In this document: positions 8,435 to 58,681 of the stretch, piece after piece | Numbering within the stretch: position 1 is the first letter of the stretch | How the letters are laid out: the number at the start of each line of letters is the position of its first letter | Virus record (IMG/VR): IMGVR_UViG_3300032296_002040 | Location: 1-63,911 of that record | Strand: one strand, 5' to 3' | Source: a virus | Length of the DNA: 63,911 nucleotides | Position numbers and translations under genes: made by a program | The notes under the pieces: generated by a model | Databases searched by the model: none | What the model saw: only the letters and a program-made list of their open reading frames with translations | Told to the model about the DNA's origin: nothing

Positions 8435-9502
8435 TTACTCCATACGGGTGATGGACTTCTTGCAGATCAGCATGATGGTCTGAAGCTGACCGAAGTACGC
8501 ACCTTGTGCTTTGTAGAACGGTGTCATGTACTCATCGATCTCGTGATAGATGATATCGAGATACCTGGCGAGTTTCTCTTTGACGATGTTCTCCATGTCG
8601 GTGACTTCAGGCGTACGCACGAACGACAGGTAGGTGTTAATCGCAGTCGATCCTTGCGAATAAAGACTACGAGTACCTGCAGATGTATCGATCGAGTGTG
8701 CGAAGTTGTCAGCAGAGTCCGCACATGCATCGAGTAACTGCATGACTTCCTTCGGCTGGAAACCAGGAATCGAATAGGACGATTTCGCCAGTTCGGTTGC
8801 CTTCTTAGCCCGGCCGATCCACAGAATCTGACGAGGCTTGCTAAACGTGGTTTGTTCGTACGACGTCAGCACCCAGCAGGCCGCCAGAATGTCCGAAGCC
8901 GCATTGAACTTAGCACCCGTGACCATCACTTGCGGGGAGTTCTTGATCAGCTTCTTAGCAGCCAGATTCGGATAAGCTGCCTTACAGAGTGATGCGTATG
9001 CAGCGTCAATCTGATTCACGTCCTTGATAATCATCTTGGAGGTGTCGATCAACACGCGCAGGAAGTTCTCGTAGTCCTTGACTGCTTGTTCAGCGACGAT
9101 CTTGTAAAAGGCATTGCCTTGTTCGATCGTCTGCATGAATTCTTCGAACGTCTTAGGAGTACCCGCCTGCGTCGTCATCAAGACGATATCAGGCGACGTA
9201 AGACTGATCATGGGAGCACCGGTCTTCAGCTTAGTCTTCTTGCTGAGGAACTGCTTCAGGTTATCGCCTTCGGTACGGATCTTATTCAGACCCTTTTGGA
9301 AGTTCACTTTTTGATCGTAGAACTCAGCGTCATTCTGGAACCATTCTTTCACACGGATGATGGTGTTGTCCAAAATGCCTTCATTTGCCACAGACAAGTC
9401 AGACGAATGCGGTGCACCTGATGCACCAATCGTCATGTCGCTGATCATGTCAAGGTTTTCAGCGATTTCTTCCACAGAAAGTTTGTATTTCTTAGTAGTC
9501 AT
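8435..9502 (-). CDS. Inner-head (virion) protein candidate
   Basis: The 355-residue product starts with KKYKLSVEE, similar to the start of the next minus-strand protein (RNYKLSMS), and carries SVANEGIL at residues 38-45. A small residue-x-E followed by a small residue fits the known phiKZ maturation-protease cleavage preference (after S/A/G-x-E), predicting removal of a 41-residue propeptide. A third candidate at 53993-54844 has the matching SNEGL. The remainder is largely helical. phiKZ heads contain several such paralogous, processed inner-body proteins; assignment here is by motif and context. The ribosome binding site is weak. Confidence 0.5.
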   Translation of the reverse strand: MTTKKYKLSVEEIAENLDMISDMTIGASGAPHSSDLSVANEGILDNTIIRVKEWFQNDAEFYDQKVNFQKGLNKIRTEGDNLKQFLSKKTKLKTGAPMISLTSPDIVLMTTQAGTPKTFEEFMQTIEQGNAFYKIVAEQAVKDYENFLRVLIDTSKMIIKDVNQIDAAYASLCKAAYPNLAAKKLIKNSPQVMVTGAKFNAASDILAACWVLTSYEQTTFSKPRQILWIGRAKKATELAKSSYSIPGFQPKEVMQLLDACADSADNFAHSIDTSAGTRSLYSQGSTAINTYLSFVRTPEVTDMENIVKEKLARYLDIIYHEIDEYMTPFYKAQGAYFGQLQTIMLICKKSITRME

Positions 9503-9637: not shown

Positions 9638-11380
9638 TTACTGACGGAAGGAACGCATGTTGCGAGCGGTGAACCAGCAATACTTGGCGCCCTTGATCGC
9701 ACGAGCCAGTTCGGAAGCAGCCGGGTTCTGATAACCACGAACCAGGTTCTTACCGATCTGTGCAACTTGATCCATACCGGCAATGACTTGCTGATCCTTC
9801 AGTCCCTTGGCAACCACACCCAGCTTGGACATAGCGGCATCAATCGACTTCATGATGGCATTCAGTTCATCCTTGCGACGCAGGAACTCTTGAGCGTTGG
9901 CCAGGTAAGCCAAGCCAGCATCCGCTACTTGCATAGCTTCGCCATCTTTGATGACGATCTTCTTCGAAGTGGCCAGTTCGGTACCCATCAGATTACCGGA
10001 GACCTTGGCTGCACGATGCTTGCCACTGGAAACCATCTTCACTTCGGTAGCGGTCGCCAGCTGTGCCATCTTGGTGAATTCCACACCACCCACGGTGACC
10101 GGTTTACGAGCCGAACCGTAATGCACTTCCAGACCCTTGACGTTCAGGAGAGGGAAGTTGTTCGAGATCAGCTGCTTGGGGAACAGAGCCGCCGGGGAAG
10201 ACAGAGCTTCGACACGCTTGAACAGGGCAGCGAAACCTTCAGCGTTCTGAGGAACAGCCTTGACGATAGAATCAAACTTCTTCAGCAGTTCCATCACCTT
10301 GGCAGTATGCTCCACCAGGATAGCCTTGTCGGCAGCCACGTCTTGAACAGCAGCCGCTCCCAGAGCATTCACCTGACCAGCACCAGTCGAGAAGAACTGC
10401 CAGGAACCAGCCAGGTCGAATTTGGCATCACCAGTCTTTTCCTTACCGTTACCAGTCTTGGTCTGGATGTCAGCCTTGAGTTTGGCCAGTGCCTTTTCGT
10501 ACTTGCCGATTTCACCAGCGGTAGAACGGAAACTATCCGCCAGACCATGCCAGATCTTCTCTTCAGCGGTCAGACGCCACTGAGCGTAGGTAGTCAGTGC
10601 CGAACCGATGGATTCCAGAGCGATCTGGTGTTTCTGCTGGATGGACAGACGACCATATTGTTCCATGGACGGCTTGATCAGCACGATACCCAGAGCTTCC
10701 AGAGCCGGAGTCGCTGCTTCATCGATCAGTTTCAGAGTCTGTTCGGAACCGGTACCGCTGTCGACGATCTCTTGAACAGTAGCTTGCACCACTTCCAGAG
10801 TTTCAGCAGCAGCTTCGGCTTTCTGTTCTTGGTCGAAGTCGTAGTCGGCTTCCTTGATGGCCATCTCCAGTTCCATCTCCACATCCGGTTCAACGGACAT
10901 GGCTTGGTTGATGACGATCTCATCATCAGGAGCACCGGTCGGAGCCTTGATCTCGGTGGACTTGCCAGGTTCACCGCTGGGTTCAGCAGGAGTACCTTCA
11001 CCTTGAGCACCCACGCCACCGTTGGTGGTGGTTTCGTCGGATTCAGTCGAGGGGGTCACTTGACGGGGTTGTTCAGGCACGCCACCCTTGGCACCTTCCT
11101 TGGCGACTTTGTCCACGCTGGGTACGCCAGGTGCGCCGGTGTTGTCTTCGCCCTTGGGAGCACCGACAGCAGTAGCGAAGGAGTTCTCATCCTTGGGCAG
11201 AGCCTTCGGATCAGTGACGATGCCATCTTCGCCCAGTTTCTCCACAGGCTTCTGACCGTCGATTTCCGTCACGTCTGACGGTTTGGTTTCGACAATCGGA
11301 TCACCGTTGGGAGCTTGTTCAGGGCTGGAACCGTCGAGCGATTCAATGCTCATGGACAGCTTGTAGTTACGTTTATTCAT
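9638..11380 (-). CDS. Large inner-head (virion) protein candidate with acidic propeptide
   Basis: The 580-residue product begins MNKRNYKLSMSIESLDGSSP, sharing the [R/K]xYKLS start with the 355-residue protein downstream. Residues 10-200 are strongly acidic, proline/glycine/threonine-rich and low-complexity; residues 200-580 are helical with regular hydrophobic spacing. An acidic N-terminal region before a helical body suits a virion precursor that is trimmed during head maturation; S-x-E sites such as SIES exist near the N-terminus. Codon use is strongly GC-ending, like the capsid gene, suggesting high expression. The start has a weak TAGGTG site. Specific role not known. Confidence 0.5.
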   Translation of the reverse strand: MNKRNYKLSMSIESLDGSSPEQAPNGDPIVETKPSDVTEIDGQKPVEKLGEDGIVTDPKALPKDENSFATAVGAPKGEDNTGAPGVPSVDKVAKEGAKGGVPEQPRQVTPSTESDETTTNGGVGAQGEGTPAEPSGEPGKSTEIKAPTGAPDDEIVINQAMSVEPDVEMELEMAIKEADYDFDQEQKAEAAAETLEVVQATVQEIVDSGTGSEQTLKLIDEAATPALEALGIVLIKPSMEQYGRLSIQQKHQIALESIGSALTTYAQWRLTAEEKIWHGLADSFRSTAGEIGKYEKALAKLKADIQTKTGNGKEKTGDAKFDLAGSWQFFSTGAGQVNALGAAAVQDVAADKAILVEHTAKVMELLKKFDSIVKAVPQNAEGFAALFKRVEALSSPAALFPKQLISNNFPLLNVKGLEVHYGSARKPVTVGGVEFTKMAQLATATEVKMVSSGKHRAAKVSGNLMGTELATSKKIVIKDGEAMQVADAGLAYLANAQEFLRRKDELNAIMKSIDAAMSKLGVVAKGLKDQQVIAGMDQVAQIGKNLVRGYQNPAASELARAIKGAKYCWFTARNMRSFRQ

Positions 11381-11479: not shown

Positions 11480-13504
11480 TTAGAACCAAGACCGACGCAT
11501 TAAGAGTGCTGATAAATCAGCTGCCTCTAAACTAACATCGGTAAAGCATTCCATCCCAATTTCCAGATCGTCGACAACTGGCTTGCCCATCAATGCAGCA
11601 ACGGTATCACGACTCCATGTCATGATGTCGATATTGCGTGTAGACAAGTTAGTCTCTTTACCTGTGTCCAGTGCATAGTCAAAGATACTGACTGAAGAAT
11701 CTTGACCTTGACGCCAGCAACGAGCAATCGCTTGTTGACGTTCATAGTCACGATAAGGTGCATTGAACATGAGGATGTTGTTAGCCATGATCATCGGCAC
11801 GGCAGTAGAGAGCGACTTGTAAGTAGCGATGACTGGATTCAAGTCAACGTCTTCTTCAAATTGCTTCAAGAGCGTGGAGAGATCTTTGTTAGTCTCACCA
11901 TAAATGAGAATAGGCTTGTAACCCTTCTCAGTTAAGTAGTCACCCATCTTTTTGACGACACCTACGTAAGTCGAGAAGATGATAGTTTTCTTGGTAGCAG
12001 CATCGATAAAGCTTTCTGCTTTCGAATATTCCACCATGTCAACGTGACACTGCTCTCGCAACCGCCCAAGAACGCGTCCTAAAGCCTCTCCTTGCACTTT
12101 TAAGAAGTAATACTTCACCACACTACGTGCATCCTTAAACTCTTCCCGTAGCGCCTGTGGTAAGGTCGGGACGATTTTCTTCAACTCGTAGAGGTTGCAG
12201 TACTTTACCTCTTCTTTATGTAGTTTTGGATCGTAGCCTTTTCGGATCATGTACACAAAGCGCTTGTACTTCTCAAAGTCTGCTGACTCGCTCTTACGAA
12301 TGGAGGCTGCATAGATACGCAAGCACTCGTTATACAAGTCCAGATAACGAGGCATCTCTTCTTCGTAATACGCCATACGTGACATGATGAAGTCACGCAT
12401 CTTTCCACGCACGACTTCTAAGGTGTAGTCATGACCATTAGGCATTTCCACCTTGACTTCAACTGGAGGCAATAAGACCGAGGAGATCTCTGACTTATCG
12501 ACCTTAATCATGTTGTTGCCAAGACGAGCCGCCAAGATATCCAGACCACGATTACTGTTCTTACCAAAGATCTGTAAGAAGCGATACTTCGCATCTTCGT
12601 CGAAGAACGGGTCAATCGTGACCAGTAATGGAATAACTTCCTTACCAACGGCTTTAAACGGCGTGCCAGAGGCCCAAACGGTGTGCTTACATGAAATGGC
12701 CTTCACCAAGTCAACGACGAGCTTAGAACGCGCCGTATCCATTTCATTCAGGTTATGGGATTCGTCTAGCCAGATCATCGGCATTCTGAAAACTTTACCT
12801 GTGAAGAAGAGAACAGCACGCTCTAGTTGTTCGTAATGGAACACGTAGTTCTTGTAACCTGGTGTTAAGTCCACATTGCTGTCAGAGAACCAGCAGGTCT
12901 CCGACTTCTTCAACTCGTTCTCTAAGGTAGCACGCCAGACTCGATCTACCGAGTTCTTCGGGACGATGAAGATATTGACGTCAGTATTTAAACAAGCACC
13001 TAGGAGCAAACCTGCAATTGTCTTACCTGTGCCAGGTTCAGCTGCTAACATGAAACCGTTTAAACCAAACTTAGGTACGATGTCATTGTAAGCATGCAGG
13101 AACTTCATCTGGCTATCTAATGGCGTCTTCTTCAACCGATTGATCTGGGTGAAGTCTAAGATGTCATTAGACGGAGAGACTGTACGCTTTAACCACGTAT
13201 GTTCGTAGAGCAGCTCTACTAACTGACGCAGCGCACGATAGTTGTATCCCTCAAAGCGTTTCTTGTTTTCACGTTCAGACAAAATACGCTGGAGAGTATA
13301 AGCAAAGTCAGGAGCGAAGAACTTGTTAAACTTTAAGCTACTCTTCTTTAACTCCGTAAACATGAAGCCGGTGATCTTTGAGGTTGACCAGATCTTGAGG
13401 ATGTCTTTCTCCACGAGATCGGCTGGTAAACCTTCAATACGGATTTGGTCGCGATCCTCGATCACCTTGATGGCCCCGACCAAACGTCGTACGCCTGAGA
13501 ACAT
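11480..13504 (-). CDS. SNF2-type SF2 helicase
   Basis: The 674-residue product has clear SF2 helicase motifs: Walker A AAEPGTGKTIAGLL near residue 158, the DEAH-type box WLDESHN near 246, SGTPFKA (motif III-like) near 280, and QAIARCWRQGQDSSVSIFDY (motif VI) near 605, whose R-x-x-R-x-GQ pattern is typical of the SNF2/RapA branch. Such proteins translocate on double-stranded DNA; phage members help replication, recombination or branch migration (compare T4 UvsW in role). The N-terminal 120 residues are an extra unassigned domain. The next minus-strand gene upstream ends 15 nt before this start; AAGGA precedes the ATG. Confidence 0.85.
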   Translation of the reverse strand: MFSGVRRLVGAIKVIEDRDQIRIEGLPADLVEKDILKIWSTSKITGFMFTELKKSSLKFNKFFAPDFAYTLQRILSERENKKRFEGYNYRALRQLVELLYEHTWLKRTVSPSNDILDFTQINRLKKTPLDSQMKFLHAYNDIVPKFGLNGFMLAAEPGTGKTIAGLLLGACLNTDVNIFIVPKNSVDRVWRATLENELKKSETCWFSDSNVDLTPGYKNYVFHYEQLERAVLFFTGKVFRMPMIWLDESHNLNEMDTARSKLVVDLVKAISCKHTVWASGTPFKAVGKEVIPLLVTIDPFFDEDAKYRFLQIFGKNSNRGLDILAARLGNNMIKVDKSEISSVLLPPVEVKVEMPNGHDYTLEVVRGKMRDFIMSRMAYYEEEMPRYLDLYNECLRIYAASIRKSESADFEKYKRFVYMIRKGYDPKLHKEEVKYCNLYELKKIVPTLPQALREEFKDARSVVKYYFLKVQGEALGRVLGRLREQCHVDMVEYSKAESFIDAATKKTIIFSTYVGVVKKMGDYLTEKGYKPILIYGETNKDLSTLLKQFEEDVDLNPVIATYKSLSTAVPMIMANNILMFNAPYRDYERQQAIARCWRQGQDSSVSIFDYALDTGKETNLSTRNIDIMTWSRDTVAALMGKPVVDDLEIGMECFTDVSLEAADLSALLMRRSWF

Positions 13505-13518
13505 GGATTATTCCTTGG

Positions 13519-14550
13519 TTATTGATATCGATAGAGTTCTTCCACGAGACCTTCCAAAGCAAAGGCAATGAATGCCCTGAAGCTAGGGTAGTGAATCGTT
13601 TGGTAATTACGCGGGAAGTCATCATCGAAGTGAGCGGTCTTGACGATACATCCTTTATGCTTACCTTCGTACGGTGCAATCGCCCAGACAAGGCTATCGT
13701 TGCGAGCCACTGGGATGAATCCAACATGAGAGCTATCAGGAGTCGCTTTAGCCTTCTCATCAACCTGCTTCCAGTAATTGATCTCGTTGGCGATACCTTT
13801 CAATGAGAAAATCTCACCATATTCAAACAACGCCATCGGCAAGCGCTTACGATAACGTAAGTTGAAATCGCGGATGTCACCGTTACACAAACTCAGGAAA
13901 GACCTAACGTCCGCTGGTAAGTGAACATTAGTTGCTTCTGTGAATGCCTGGAAGTCTTCATCGCTGGCTTTCACCAGTTTAGACATCAGTGCATTATAAG
14001 TCGCTTCATCCAGATGTTTTAATGTCGACATCGCGCGATGCCATGACGCCGAGATGGTTGGTGGATTGTTCTTGTCGATGACTAACTTTGTATACGACTC
14101 TTTTGGTTTAGGTTCTTCCTTCGGTTTACCGAAACCCAAGAAACTCTCCGTTGAGACGACTTCACCAGTGCGACGCTCATGCAGACGACGAAGACGATCA
14201 TGGATGTCAGGTTTAGCTTCAGCCTTAAACTTCTCGCCCAATTCCTCCATCGCACTCTTGGGAACTTCAGCAGGTTTCTCGCCACGGAACTTAGCAGCCA
14301 GTTCTTCCATGGTTGGCAGTTGCGCAGCCATAGGCGACAGAGTTTCTCCTTCAGCTGTCGGAGCCATCAGATCTAAGCCCACGTCTTCAGCAGATGCAGT
14401 GACTTTTTTCTCACCATCGATTTCTTTGCGCTGTTTGTCTATCACTTTAGCAGGAGCAACCACTGCTGGAGTATCCAGATCTTCACGTAAGTCTTCGACC
14501 GATACATTCTTCGTTTGGGGTGCAGCGCCCCAAGTCTTCATCCATTCCAT
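13519..14550 (-). CDS. SUKH (SMI1/KNR4-like) domain protein with shared N-terminal tag
   Basis: The 343-residue product has three parts. Residues 1-25 start MEWMKTWGAAP, closely matching the start of the adjacent ADP-ribosyltransferase (MKWMKEWSAV). Residues 30-160 are a charged, low-complexity linker with two MEEL repeats (around 81 and 101) and an STESFLGF sequence that could be a maturation-protease site. Residues 165-340 resemble a SUKH domain: LPADVRSFLSLCNG, then GFIPVARNDSLVWAIAP, then YPSFRAFIAFALEGL, in the order NG-core, strand, FxxF helix. SUKH proteins often act as immunity proteins against toxins in bacteria. In a phage, roles such as shielding against the neighbouring effector or a host toxin are inference. 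AAGGACGG precedes the ATG. Confidence 0.65.
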   Translation of the reverse strand: MEWMKTWGAAPQTKNVSVEDLREDLDTPAVVAPAKVIDKQRKEIDGEKKVTASAEDVGLDLMAPTAEGETLSPMAAQLPTMEELAAKFRGEKPAEVPKSAMEELGEKFKAEAKPDIHDRLRRLHERRTGEVVSTESFLGFGKPKEEPKPKESYTKLVIDKNNPPTISASWHRAMSTLKHLDEATYNALMSKLVKASDEDFQAFTEATNVHLPADVRSFLSLCNGDIRDFNLRYRKRLPMALFEYGEIFSLKGIANEINYWKQVDEKAKATPDSSHVGFIPVARNDSLVWAIAPYEGKHKGCIVKTAHFDDDFPRNYQTIHYPSFRAFIAFALEGLVEELYRYQ

Positions 14551-14559
14551 AATCCGTCC

Positions 14560-15117
14560 TTAATTAATCGTAAATTCAATATCAAAGGGTGGTAGGATAA
14601 CTACTTCATCCTGAGTTTGAAGGTTGGTTATTTTCCTGCGGTCGCAAATGATCTTACTGAGTTCAGGCGTGATTATTAAAGCTAATTGCTTACTTGGATC
14701 ACACACCGTGCTAACCAACGTTGTACCAAATCCTCGCGCTATGAAAATATTCGTGCTAAATGAAATAGCTTTCTCAGTACTAGCATATCGGAACACATCG
14801 CCTTTCTTGTACTTCTTTACCTTACTGAAGATTGGACCATTGGGATCTCTGAGATCCATGGTATCTTGGTAATTAAGGTGTGGACTAATGCCTCGATATA
14901 AAACCAGACTTTGAGAATGCTTGTTTAACCCATTAACGATGACAGCTAACTTTTTCAGATCTTCAATGAGTCGGCGATCCGGGTAGAGAATCCAGTCGTC
15001 CAAAACCTTTATTAGATCTTGATGTTTTAGCAATACCTGTAATTTGTGAGGATCAATCTCTGATAGCTCTAATCGTCGAGATCCCCTAACTGCAGACCAC
15101 TCTTTCATCCATTTCAT
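14560..15117 (-). CDS. ADP-ribosyltransferase (R-S-E class)
   Basis: The 185-residue product has the three landmarks of arginine-type/Rho-type ADP-ribosyltransferases: LVLYRGIS with the NAD-binding arginine at residue 75, KAISFSTNIFIARGF with the STS-like segment at 119-122, and QTQDEVVILPP with the catalytic glutamate at 171. Two residues before the glutamate is glutamine (Q169), a Q-x-E arrangement rather than the E-x-E of T4 Alt/ModA. Q-x-E enzymes usually modify residues other than arginine. Residues 1-60 are a helical extension starting MKWMKEWSAV, shared with the SUKH neighbour. T4 packages Alt and injects it to modify host proteins; a similar role here is inference. The gene ends 10 nt from the SUKH gene, so they are cotranscribed. 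Confidence 0.75.
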   Translation of the reverse strand: MKWMKEWSAVRGSRRLELSEIDPHKLQVLLKHQDLIKVLDDWILYPDRRLIEDLKKLAVIVNGLNKHSQSLVLYRGISPHLNYQDTMDLRDPNGPIFSKVKKYKKGDVFRYASTEKAISFSTNIFIARGFGTTLVSTVCDPSKQLALIITPELSKIICDRRKITNLQTQDEVVILPPFDIEFTIN

Positions 15118-15192: not shown

Positions 15193-16737
15193 TTATGCTG
15201 CTTCCATACTCCACCAAGGATTTTCTTCCGTACTACCGATAGGACCACCACCAGGTTTCTTCAGTGTCGTATCTGCACCATGGATATCGTCCCGGATACC
15301 ACCGATAGGATCGAATGGTAAGACGCAGTACAGATCTTTCTCTGGAGTCTGTTTAATGACCCGATGCTTACCACGTTGAACACACAAGTAACTCCGTCCG
15401 TTTACCTTGACGATGTGAATGTGCAGTTCCAAGTCCACTTCTTGGTCTAACTGACGCGAACCTTCGTAGTAACCCTTACCAGCGACTTCTTGTACCAGTG
15501 TATCGGCACGACCATCACGCACCAACTGCTTAGCCTCAGTCGACATCTGGTGAGGAGTAAACAGAGTAATGTCACGACGACTCATGAAGTTACGAGTACG
15601 ACGCAGCAAGTCACGTTTATCCACACCATGCGGGCCTTGCATACAACCAGTGGTTGGTACCAGTGCCAGATAGTCCAACTGACACATGATGATTTCGTAG
15701 CCTTCGGCCTCCAACTTCAGAATCAGGTTTTGAATATCCCGATACGTCCAGTTGGTTGGGTCGACACGCTTGATCATGATTTCCCAACCATTGATCTTCA
15801 TGCGTTCTACAACGTAGCTGGTAACTTCCTTCGGATCCAGTTCGTTGTAGTCTGGCACCATCTTCAACGTTTCGTTCTCGTACAAGGACTGGTACAGGAA
15901 CTGCATGTTGTTCTTGGCTGGGTCTTCGAACGACAGGCGTAAGAGCAATGGCTTCTTGGTCTTATCGTTCAAGAGATCTTGAGCATCGTTATACAGCGCA
16001 GTATGCTTAAAGATAGACAGACCGAAACCTGTCTTGTAGTTGTGTTGCAGTGCTGACAGAAGGATCGCTTCTCCACGACGTATCCCACCTTGCAGCATCC
16101 GGTTAAGACCTTGCCAGCCTAACTTGATGATCTTCTGACCTGTCTCTTGTTCCTTCAGGTCTGAGTACATCGCTTGGACTGACTCTAAATTAGAGAAGTC
16201 AATCTCATCAACTACCGACGGGTCCTCATAGTCGTTGTTGGTTTGATAAGGTTCCAATGCAGCGCAGACTTCAGCGGTAAACACACGCAAGTCAGGAATC
16301 TTATCTTGTTCGAAACGCAGCTTCTGTGCTGCCCTCCATGTAATCTCGGCTACCTTTTGGTAGTCCAGGTAATTGCGCAGTTGCTGGCGCAGGTTCAAAC
16401 AAATGCGACGCAGAGCCGCTTCGTTTAGTTCAGTAGTGATGCCTTCTGATAGGCCATCGTATAGACGATCATCATCGTCGCAATTGACTCGGATGCGTAA
16501 GAGCAGTTCCGATAATTCGTATTTATGCGATGGGGGGTTTAGTGACATCGCCAGTGCAGTTTTCTTCAATGCGCTGACGATACTCTTATCGCTGTCGATA
16601 CCAATCGACGTCTCTGGTAGCTTGACGTAATCGATAACTTGCTTGACCAAGTCGGCACTGTTGTCGACTGGATCGGCAAACTGGCTTTCTCGATAGAGCA
16701 AGACGATGCTATTAGTGAGGAGAAGTTTGTTATCCAT
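15193..16737 (-). CDS. DnaB-like replicative helicase with altered Walker A
   Basis: The 514-residue product has an N-terminal helical region and a C-terminal RecA-fold domain from about residue 200: LGWQGLNRMLQGGIRRGEAILLSAL matches the DnaB approach to the P-loop, followed by QHNYKTGFGL where DnaB has a G-x-x-x-x-G-K-T loop. The lysine and threonine remain (K235, T236), but the glycine before the lysine is tyrosine and the first glycine is lost. IIMCQLDYLALV matches the Walker B/DnaB DYLQL region and TPHQMSTEAKQL the downstream sensor motif. It probably unwinds DNA at the phage fork. Whether the altered loop is standard for phiKZ relatives I cannot check. The start has no clear ribosome binding site. 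Confidence 0.75.
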   Translation of the reverse strand: MDNKLLLTNSIVLLYRESQFADPVDNSADLVKQVIDYVKLPETSIGIDSDKSIVSALKKTALAMSLNPPSHKYELSELLLRIRVNCDDDDRLYDGLSEGITTELNEAALRRICLNLRQQLRNYLDYQKVAEITWRAAQKLRFEQDKIPDLRVFTAEVCAALEPYQTNNDYEDPSVVDEIDFSNLESVQAMYSDLKEQETGQKIIKLGWQGLNRMLQGGIRRGEAILLSALQHNYKTGFGLSIFKHTALYNDAQDLLNDKTKKPLLLRLSFEDPAKNNMQFLYQSLYENETLKMVPDYNELDPKEVTSYVVERMKINGWEIMIKRVDPTNWTYRDIQNLILKLEAEGYEIIMCQLDYLALVPTTGCMQGPHGVDKRDLLRRTRNFMSRRDITLFTPHQMSTEAKQLVRDGRADTLVQEVAGKGYYEGSRQLDQEVDLELHIHIVKVNGRSYLCVQRGKHRVIKQTPEKDLYCVLPFDPIGGIRDDIHGADTTLKKPGGGPIGSTEENPWWSMEAA

Positions 16738-57150: not shown

Positions 57151-57454
57151 AGAAGATCAAAAAGCCCTTGATCTGGGTCTGAGTGTAAACTTGGCCATAG
57201 CTTTAAGGAAACCCGAGGTTAAGGGCTTGACTACTCCTGTGTATAACACCAACGACACTGTCTTGGATATCCACGGTAAGCGAGTAGGTGTTATCTTCAT
57301 GTCCCCTAATACAGTTGTTAAGAACGACAAAGGTGAATGCCTGTACGGCATTTCCTTTAATACCACTGAAGGTCGTCAAATTCAATATGTCGCACAAGAG
57401 ACTGTTGAGAACGATGACGACTATGCATTGGTTAAATCACATAAACGTCGATAA
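57128..57454 (+). CDS. Unknown small protein, 108 aa
   Basis: I place the start at the ATG at 57128, after CCGGGAAAAGCG; a TTG at 57110 is less likely. It overlaps the 3' end of the preceding gene by 23 nt in another frame. The product has a beta-rich domain with VYNTNDTVLDIHGKRVGVIF and ends in a basic KSHKRR. Not recognised. Confidence 0.55.
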   Translation: MAKMRQTEEDQKALDLGLSVNLAIALRKPEVKGLTTPVYNTNDTVLDIHGKRVGVIFMSPNTVVKNDKGECLYGISFNTTEGRQIQYVAQETVENDDDYALVKSHKRR

Positions 57455-57463
57455 GGATACATC

Positions 57464-57937
57464 ATGTTCAATTCCAAAGATCTCGAAGCTGCAGACAGTC
57501 TGAAAGTATCTATGTTCACACCACCGGAACAAGAAGAAGGTCGTATCGGTGAAGCGGTGATGGACATCTTCGCAGTTAAGTCGAAGTTCAAGTTTAACCT
57601 GCATGACATCGTCATGCATTACAAGGGTGGTACGTATTACATTGTCGGTACTCCTGACGAATACGTGATCGAAGCCACTCGTGAACCAGCTTACGCCTAT
57701 CTGATGGAAGATGGTCGCGTCTGCGTGCGTTCCCAAGCTGAAATGGAATCCAACCTCGAAGGTGGTGAAGTTCCTCGCTTTGCTCGCATCAACCCGCCTG
57801 GCATCGGTATCGTCGATTCGGCATGGATGAATAAGACTCGTGAATGGATTCAAGCCTATCACGAAAAGCTCGCCAAAATGGTCGTTACCGGCGAAGCCAG
57901 GACTACCCTCTGGCTGACATCGAAGCACGCTGCTTAA
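57464..57937 (+). CDS. Unknown protein, 157 aa
   Basis: AAGGATACATC precedes the ATG. The product is acidic at the N-terminus, with a central beta-rich segment (KGGTYYIVGTPDEYVIEA). GC-ending codons are more frequent than in its neighbours. Not recognised. It is the last gene before a 45-nt gap. Confidence 0.55.
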   Translation: MFNSKDLEAADSLKVSMFTPPEQEEGRIGEAVMDIFAVKSKFKFNLHDIVMHYKGGTYYIVGTPDEYVIEATREPAYAYLMEDGRVCVRSQAEMESNLEGGEVPRFARINPPGIGIVDSAWMNKTREWIQAYHEKLAKMVVTGEARTTLWLTSKHAA

Positions 57938-57982
57938 GAAACTGTCAGAAAACATCGTATATATTTCATGAGGGAAGCTACC

Positions 57983-58330
57983 ATGAAGCTCGAAGATTTC
58001 ACCCTTGGGGAATTAGAACGCCACAACAAGCTAGGTGAGGAAGCTGGGGAAGTGCTCAAGGCAATGATGAAGATGCATAACCACGGTAAACACACTGAAG
58101 CAGAAGGTATCGTCTATGACAACATTGGTGACTTTACCGATGAGATTGGTGACTTCCTCGCCGCTGTAGAAAAGATGATCAATCACGGTGACATCGATTA
58201 CGTGCGGTTAATGCAGCGAGTGGCAAAGAAGGGAGCCACCATTACGAAGTTCTTGAAGCATCAGAACTCCGAACCTGTCTATAACTACTCTCTGACGCTA
58301 CGTAGCGCTGCGAGTCTTAAACTGGATTGA
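57983..58330 (+). CDS. MazG-like NTP pyrophosphohydrolase
   Basis: I use the ATG at 57983 (GAGGGAAG upstream) instead of 57968. The 115-residue product has the all-alpha NTP pyrophosphatase signature: LGEEAGEVLKA (E20-x-x-E23) and DEIGDFLAAVEKM (E54-x-x-D57), the E-x-x-E and E-x-x-D pairs that bind magnesium. Such enzymes hydrolyse (d)NTPs to monophosphates and pyrophosphate. Phage copies may adjust nucleotide pools or remove alarmones or modified nucleotides; the target is not determinable here. It starts a run of nucleotide-related accessory genes. Confidence 0.8.
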   Translation: MKLEDFTLGELERHNKLGEEAGEVLKAMMKMHNHGKHTEAEGIVYDNIGDFTDEIGDFLAAVEKMINHGDIDYVRLMQRVAKKGATITKFLKHQNSEPVYNYSLTLRSAASLKLD

Positions 58331-58336
58331 TTTACC

Positions 58337-58681
58337 ATGAATCAAGAAACAACTACTGCCCCACAGGAAGAAGGGGTTCGTCCCTTGGCGGAGATCGTCA
58401 CCAACATCCTGAAACAAGAAGGACATCCCAATCCCGAGGGTTGGATGCGATTCTTGGAAAATAATACTGGGAATCTGGATGTTATGCTCGAAGATGCAAT
58501 GGTGCGCCGCGCCCTCTCCGCCATGTTAGTGGATGCGTCCGCTAATGGCGATGGTCTGAATACCATTGACGAACGTATGGCTGTTTTGACAACTGCTACC
58601 CGTCCTGAATGGATCCGTATCTTCCAACTGAGGGTTGCACCATGCGTGGTCAAAAACCAGCTGCCGCTGACCAAGCACTGA
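58337..58681 (+). CDS. Unknown protein, 114 aa
   Basis: Starts 6 nt after the MazG-like gene. The product is a small helical protein with an N-terminal polar stretch; the C-terminal 40 nt overlap the SLOG gene's start in another frame. Not recognised. Gene order suggests translational coupling with the SLOG gene. Confidence 0.55.
   Translation: MNQETTTAPQEEGVRPLAEIVTNILKQEGHPNPEGWMRFLENNTGNLDVMLEDAMVRRALSAMLVDASANGDGLNTIDERMAVLTTATRPEWIRIFQLRVAPCVVKNQLPLTKH

Follow-up and report, generated by a model that had tools for sequence, protein, structure and literature searches.

Why should two neighboring genes for unrelated proteins open with almost the same seven residues? The question arises at 13519-15117 of the window, by which we mean the whole 63,911-base stretch of viral DNA analyzed here, where a SUKH-domain protein begins MEWMKTW and an ADP-ribosyltransferase-like (ART) protein begins MKWMKEW. 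The original prediction took the common MxWMKxW as a sorting tag, either for packaging into the head and injection or for localization to the phage nucleus, and perhaps as an effector-delivery signal not described before. Both open reading frames were confirmed on the minus strand, and we analyzed their sequences, their genomic setting, and their parallels in better known phages.

A 310,114-base phage record in IMG/VR includes the window, at 99.998% identity across all 63,911 bases; the first 87 bases of that record are also its last 87, as in a circular assembly. Homologues of phiKZ ChmA (1e-26), PicA (3e-35), gp68, gp70, and gp55 are encoded in the genome, which therefore belongs to a phage of the nucleus-forming, phiKZ type. 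Judged by DnaB, Burkholderia phage FLC9 (55% identity) is the nearest named relative. Scans of IMG/VR for relatives with the ART, with the SUKH protein, with DnaB, and with alignments A2 and A3 returned the phage itself or nothing, as did scans of genome contigs, and the ART-SUKH gene pair is known from one phage only, in two near-identical records. Our predicted proteome comprises 373 proteins, 372 from a simple codon-usage gene caller and the ART, which the caller missed, added by hand. The caller also missed the ART in the phages pEa_SNUABM_54 and SXP01, whose N-terminal pair lists are thus without it. The features discussed below lie on the minus strand, in window coordinates, as follows.

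15193..16737, minus strand: divergent DnaB helicase, upstream neighbor (PF20307, E = 8e-122; FLC9 orthologue)
14560..15117, minus strand: ART-like gene, 185 aa (MKWMKEWSAVRGSRRLELSEIDPHKL), N-terminus MKWMKEW (open reading frame; homologues in four phages)
15055..15117, minus strand: shared module, ART residues 1-21 (MxWMKxW at 15097-15117; anchored ungapped score 41 against SUKH)
13519..14550, minus strand: SUKH-domain gene, 343 aa (MEWMKTWGAAPQTKNVSVEDLREDL), N-terminus MEWMKTW (open reading frame; PF09346)
14488..14550, minus strand: shared module, SUKH residues 1-21 (MxWMKxW at 14530-14550), ending SVEDL (same ungapped comparison)
14227..14310, minus strand: repeat MEELAAKF / MEELGEKF in the SUKH linker, residues 81-88 and 101-108 (from the sequence)
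14143..14157, minus strand: candidate maturation cleavage after E135, V-S-T-E-S, SUKH residues 132-136 (V at P4, [SA] at P3, E at P1, S at P1')
13567..13968, minus strand: SUKH domain, residues 195-328 (PF09346 SUKH-1, E = 1.1e-8)
11480..13504, minus strand: SNF2-type helicase, downstream neighbor (directly after DnaB in FLC9)
9638..11380, minus strand: internal-head-like protein (MNKRNYKLSMSIES; homologue of FLC9 gp96/gp97; phiKZ-trained matrix)
8435..9502, minus strand: internal-head-like protein (MTTKKYKLSVEEI; phiKZ-trained N-terminal matrix)

The shared N-terminus is real and non-random, it sits on unrelated domains, and the case for it is stronger than the original prediction was able to make. 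Among all 69,378 pairs of N-termini from the 373 proteins, MEWMKTW and MKWMKEW scored highest (BLOSUM62 score 32, positions 2-7), a score that none of 2,000,000 composition-random pairs reached. The anchored ungapped match runs on to residue 21 with a score of 41, which ranks sixth of 69,378; the five pairs above it all have homology beyond residue 25, and the SUKH and ART proteins have none there at E ≤ 0.01. Of all pairs that score at least 40, this one alone shows no homology in the remainder. The further loose similarity noted past the tag is real but weak: positions 8-21 by themselves score 9, a value equaled or exceeded by 0.77% of pairs, and pairwise BLASTP aligns residues 1-21 at E = 0.007. 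At the DNA level, the tags agree at 16 of 21 bases, 12 of them forced by the common M and W codons. Beyond the window, at 57267-58380 of the 310,114-base record, a run of three small genes starts MKIRKRKR, MNIRKRKR, and MKQRKHKR; neighboring pairs among them have no homology past residue 25, making this another tandem group with only a short N-terminus in common.

Behind the tag, the SUKH protein carries some 190 residues of tag and linker before a domain that passes the PF09346 cut-off (36.2 bits vs. 25.4). SUKH-1 (SMI1/KNR4) immunity proteins have this domain in common with it, and the tag and linker are extra in the window protein. The best PHROG match had E = 0.072; neither the whole protein nor its SUKH domain found a match by tblastn in 50,697 phage records, and phmmer with residues 1-190 against the phage's own 373 proteins gave nothing under E = 0.59 besides the protein itself. 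The MEELxxKF pattern repeated in the linker is absent from all the other predicted proteins of this phage. The literature on polymorphic toxin systems describes SUKH as a versatile domain and a known immunity module, one of the two superfamilies that dominate their immunity proteins, in text that names it mostly alongside nuclease toxins (PMC3482391).

The catalytic signature of ADP-ribosyltransferases consists of R, S-T, and [EQ]xE, and in the second protein R75, S119, T122, and Q169-D-E171 are candidates for it. No Pfam family matches this protein at E values up to 1. Homologues 25-37% identical to it occur in the phages BONAISHI, SXP01, pEa_SNUABM_54, and Eowyn, and in the alignment of all five sequences (A1, window ART included), R75, G76, S119, T122, and E171 are invariant. 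Family matches are weak and occur in aligned homologues only: three of the five match Pfam DRAT (best E = 0.0087), one matches ADPrib_exo_Tox (0.0092), and one matches PHROG 832, RNA polymerase ADP-ribosylase (1e-4). The A1 profile gave chance-level matches only against solved structures (best E = 0.18), and single-sequence AlphaFold models were uninformative (pLDDT 31.5 for ART, 42.6 for SUKH). Assignment of the window protein as an ADP-ribosyltransferase is thus weak but consistent.

The order of transcription on the minus strand is DnaB, ART, SUKH, SNF2, and then the genes at 11380-9638 and 9502-8435, with 9 bases between ART and SUKH. In FLC9, DnaB is directly followed by SNF2, without the ART-SUKH cassette, and then by gp96 and gp97. 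The simplest reading is therefore that ART and SUKH entered as a cassette between two helicase genes that are conserved. The gene for the ART homologue of pEa_SNUABM_54 likewise adjoins DnaB. At 39% GC vs. 48% for the genome, the ART gene lies at the 0.7th percentile of 290 genes, and it has no obvious Shine-Dalgarno sequence, which together suggest recent acquisition. A promoter and terminator scan gave nothing exceeding chance.

We then asked how widely the tag is distributed, as the original prediction had proposed for the complete genome and for relatives. No other open reading frame of the genome begins MxWMKxW, whether of at least 40 aa or from any ATG, GTG, or TTG start, and so no known head protein of the phage carries it. 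Searches of the phage collection with both N-termini by tblastn found nothing. The pattern ATG-[EK]-WMKxW has at least 119 matches in at least 118 IMG/VR stretches; among the matches listed, the open reading frame from the tag ATG is 70 aa or shorter, save in the phage itself (L112) and in L078 (93 aa), L107 (153 aa), and L115 (383 aa). The first two of these three lie across longer open reading frames, and the frame of the third is open for 51 codons upstream. With a Shine-Dalgarno-like AGGA added, the pattern occurs in 13 IMG/VR stretches. One is the phage itself; L217 (MGWMKRW, 456 aa) and L221 (MLWMKFW, 142 aa) are likely real starts, but of isolated single genes; L218 (128 aa) overlaps longer frames; in L222 the second codon is a stop; the remaining eight encode 9-29 aa. 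A second tagged pair appeared in neither scan, for the first scan among the matches listed. In the open-access literature searched, we found no report of an MxWMKxW leader, both seven-residue strings were unmatched, and MKWMK matched solely in unrelated papers. With two carriers and no other tagged frame in the genome, the idea of a general effector-delivery signal is not supported.

Absence of the tag from homologues had been named beforehand as telling against a sorting function, and none of the four ART homologues, distant as they are, carries MxWMKxW, although they have the same domain with its conserved R-G, S, T, and E. A degenerate K-x-[WY] is present in the N-termini of four of the five aligned ARTs, the window's included (KEW, KEY, KTY, KYY), in a gapped alignment and picked post hoc. 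The motif is not rare, occurring in the first 15 residues of 15/373 proteins here and in 22/298 in BONAISHI, and as a conserved element of ART N-termini it is a weak hint.

The closest precedent for such a pair comes from T4. The T4 internal proteins Ip1-3 are described as having no homology save an N-terminal capsid-directing leader, and as being injected to block host restriction (PMC12373910, PMC3012670). Like SUKH and ART, IPI-III are unrelated small accessory proteins with only a short N-terminal leader in common, and their leader pairs score 25 (ipI/ipII), 27 (ipI/ipIII), and 54 (ipII/ipIII) over 7-17 residues, compared with 41 over 21 for SUKH/ART. The leader sequences themselves are unrelated, with anchored scores against ipI-III of 1-4 for SUKH and 11-16 for ART, and packaging is known for the T4 proteins, while for SUKH and ART we infer it. 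T4 too is reported to package an ART, Alt, and the accounts of SPN3US describe two paralogous ejection proteins, gp53 and gp54, that are identical over their first 15 residues and diverged elsewhere (PMC10052503, PMC5694885). ARTs have been proposed as frequently packaged proteins, chiefly in the contractile-tailed myoviruses (PMC9503650).

Giant phages related to this one are reported to cut their head proteins after AxE or SxE, and for SPN3US the published cleavage data describe a preference for V at P4 and S at P1', with N-terminal propeptides mostly of 111-254 residues (PMC10052503, PMC5694885). The SUKH protein has four [SA]xE sites in residues 1-140, against 1.2 expected: SVE19, SAE55, AME102, and VSTE135-S. 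The S-V-E ending at residue 19 lies inside the shared module and is a candidate prohead-protease site. With an SxE near the N-terminus, more [SA]xE sites along the linker, and a domain at the C-terminus, the SUKH protein resembles the internal head (ejection) proteins of phiKZ and SPN3US. The ART, unlike phiKZ-type processed internal head proteins, has no [SA]xE before residue 115, where its only site lies. Four of ten phiKZ head proteins (gp93, gp94, gp95, gp97) have [SA]xE within their first 25 residues, in each case an SLE ending at residue 11-13, whereas the SVE of SUKH ends at 19. The motif S[VILM]E[DES][FIL], chosen post hoc, lies within the first 25 residues in 6/373 proteins, SUKH included, where its frequency at other positions (3 sites in 82,584) predicts 0.28. 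No such enrichment is seen in FLC9 (1, expected 0.47), BONAISHI (1, 0.64), pEa_SNUABM_54 (0, 0.86), or SXP01 (0, 0.16).

None of three position-specific matrices singled out the SUKH N-terminus. A matrix from the five phiKZ N-termini of gp92, gp93, gp94, gp95, and gp97 placed it 28th of 373, with 46/984 internal windows equally good, and scored its sites at 0.91 bits (E19), 7.52 (E55), -1.74 (E102), and 2.87 (E135). An FLC9-trained matrix placed it 105th (224/984 windows equally good), and one from the phage's own head proteins placed it 19th (29/984), where left-out members of the training set rank 1-3. The ART ranked 11th with the FLC9 matrix, and we rejected this as a cleavage site since P1 of the top-scoring ART window is not E. 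That the SUKH protein is a processed head protein is, on these grounds, possible, not established.

The phiKZ matrix gave its top ranks to other proteins of the phage. Ranks 1 to 3 went to g_196691, g_103426 (window 9638-11380), and g_102223 (window 8435-9502), rank 4 to g_263112 (PHROG 2497, internal head protein), and rank 7 to g_250152, with other proteins at 5 and 6. The head-protein candidates g_253125 and g_254680 were not among the top 15; positions 253125-256140 of the 310,114-base record encode adjacent paralogous head-like proteins that start MSRRNQVSVEDF and MSRRYHYSMEDF. The two window proteins have an N-terminus of the phiKZ internal-head type (KLSVEEI for 8435-9502, SMSIESL for 9638-11380), and by phmmer the product of 9638-11380 matches FLC9 gp96 and gp97 at 9e-15 and 9e-35. 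No PHROG family was found for it, for the product of 8435-9502 (E ≤ 0.001), or for FLC9 gp96/gp97, and the window gene at 8435-9502 had no tblastn match among phages. The same-strand row that holds the tagged genes thus runs on into two internal-head-like genes.

From these observations, the explanation we favor, at a probability of about 0.38, is that the shared module may be a T4-like capsid-targeting leader on the two-gene ART-SUKH cassette of a phiKZ-type jumbo phage, through which both proteins would be packaged. The first ~21 residues, led by MxWMKxW, would recruit the two proteins into the core of the prohead. There, the prohead protease would cut SUKH after SVE19, removing the leader, and after VSTE135, removing the linker, and so free the SUKH domain; the ART would keep its tag because no [SA]xE lies near its N-terminus. 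Packaged in this way, the two proteins would be ejected with the DNA, the ART would then ADP-ribosylate a host target, and SUKH would bind either the ART or a host effector. From packaging through cleavage and ejection to the modification of a host target, each of these steps is inferred. Of the sorting-tag proposal, the part that concerns the head is plausible by precedent and context: the T4 internal proteins, the gene row with its internal-head-like genes, and the propeptide-like linker of SUKH point to it, and the restriction to two carriers in a single known phage, the 0/4 ART homologues, the matrix ranks of SUKH, the missing N-terminal [SA]xE of ART, and the lack of PHROG families for the internal-head-like neighbors weigh against it. 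In a variant that we regard as unlikely, MxWMKxW and about 14 further residues would form a second capsid-targeting leader of nucleus-forming phages, independent of the SxE leader of the prohead protease, that co-loads ART and SUKH as an injected effector with its partner.

The N-termini may instead be alike without any sorting function, through old recombination, partial duplication, or convergence, and be tolerated or aid translation start. Just two carriers are known and they are adjacent, the tag is absent from ART homologues, single unrelated genes in IMG/VR start with MxWMKxW (L217, L221), and other tandem genes of this phage (g_57267/57461, MxIRKRKR) begin alike over a short stretch with no homology in the rest. 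A recent 5'-end duplication is disfavored, as the DNA agrees at only 29/63 bases although W, M, and K are retained, the upstream sequences of the two genes look unrelated when compared by eye, and GC differs (39% in ART, 48% in SUKH). An origin without function, which we consider somewhat improbable, nevertheless remains likely enough to be taken seriously, because a single phage is known and some of its tandem genes begin alike.

It is also conceivable, if improbable, that the cassette pairs an effector, ART, with its partner or immunity protein, SUKH, and that both work within the infected cell and are not packaged, with the N-terminus docking them to each other or to a common host or phage target. 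The prominence of the SUKH superfamily among polymorphic toxin immunity proteins (PMC3482391) agrees with this, as do the 9-base spacing of the genes and the degenerate K-x-[WY], which 4/5 aligned ARTs have at the N-terminus but just 15/373 phage proteins have among their first 15 residues. That motif, however, is post hoc, depends on a gapped alignment, and is commoner elsewhere (22/298 in BONAISHI); the cited account places SUKH mostly with nuclease toxins; and ART homologues occur in phages where tblastn across the whole phage collection found no SUKH relative. Least likely, and to us very doubtful, is that the tag localizes its carriers to the phage nucleus or to some other compartment within the infected cell. 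This phage has the right character, encoding ChmA and PicA homologues, and that much of the nuclear proposal stands. The published description of import, however, reports no conserved signal sequence and a recognition surface in place of a terminal signal (PMC11087766), and no other open reading frame is tagged, replication proteins included.

If the leader turns out to have no role in packaging, the pair would be a caution against taking shared N-termini for signals. If it does package cargo, proteins could be loaded into phiKZ-type phage heads by means of a short handle. T4 internal proteins have been found by sequence, as PMC12373910 describes, and a packaging leader of this kind would likewise open a sequence-based route to the injected effectors of nucleus-forming phages.
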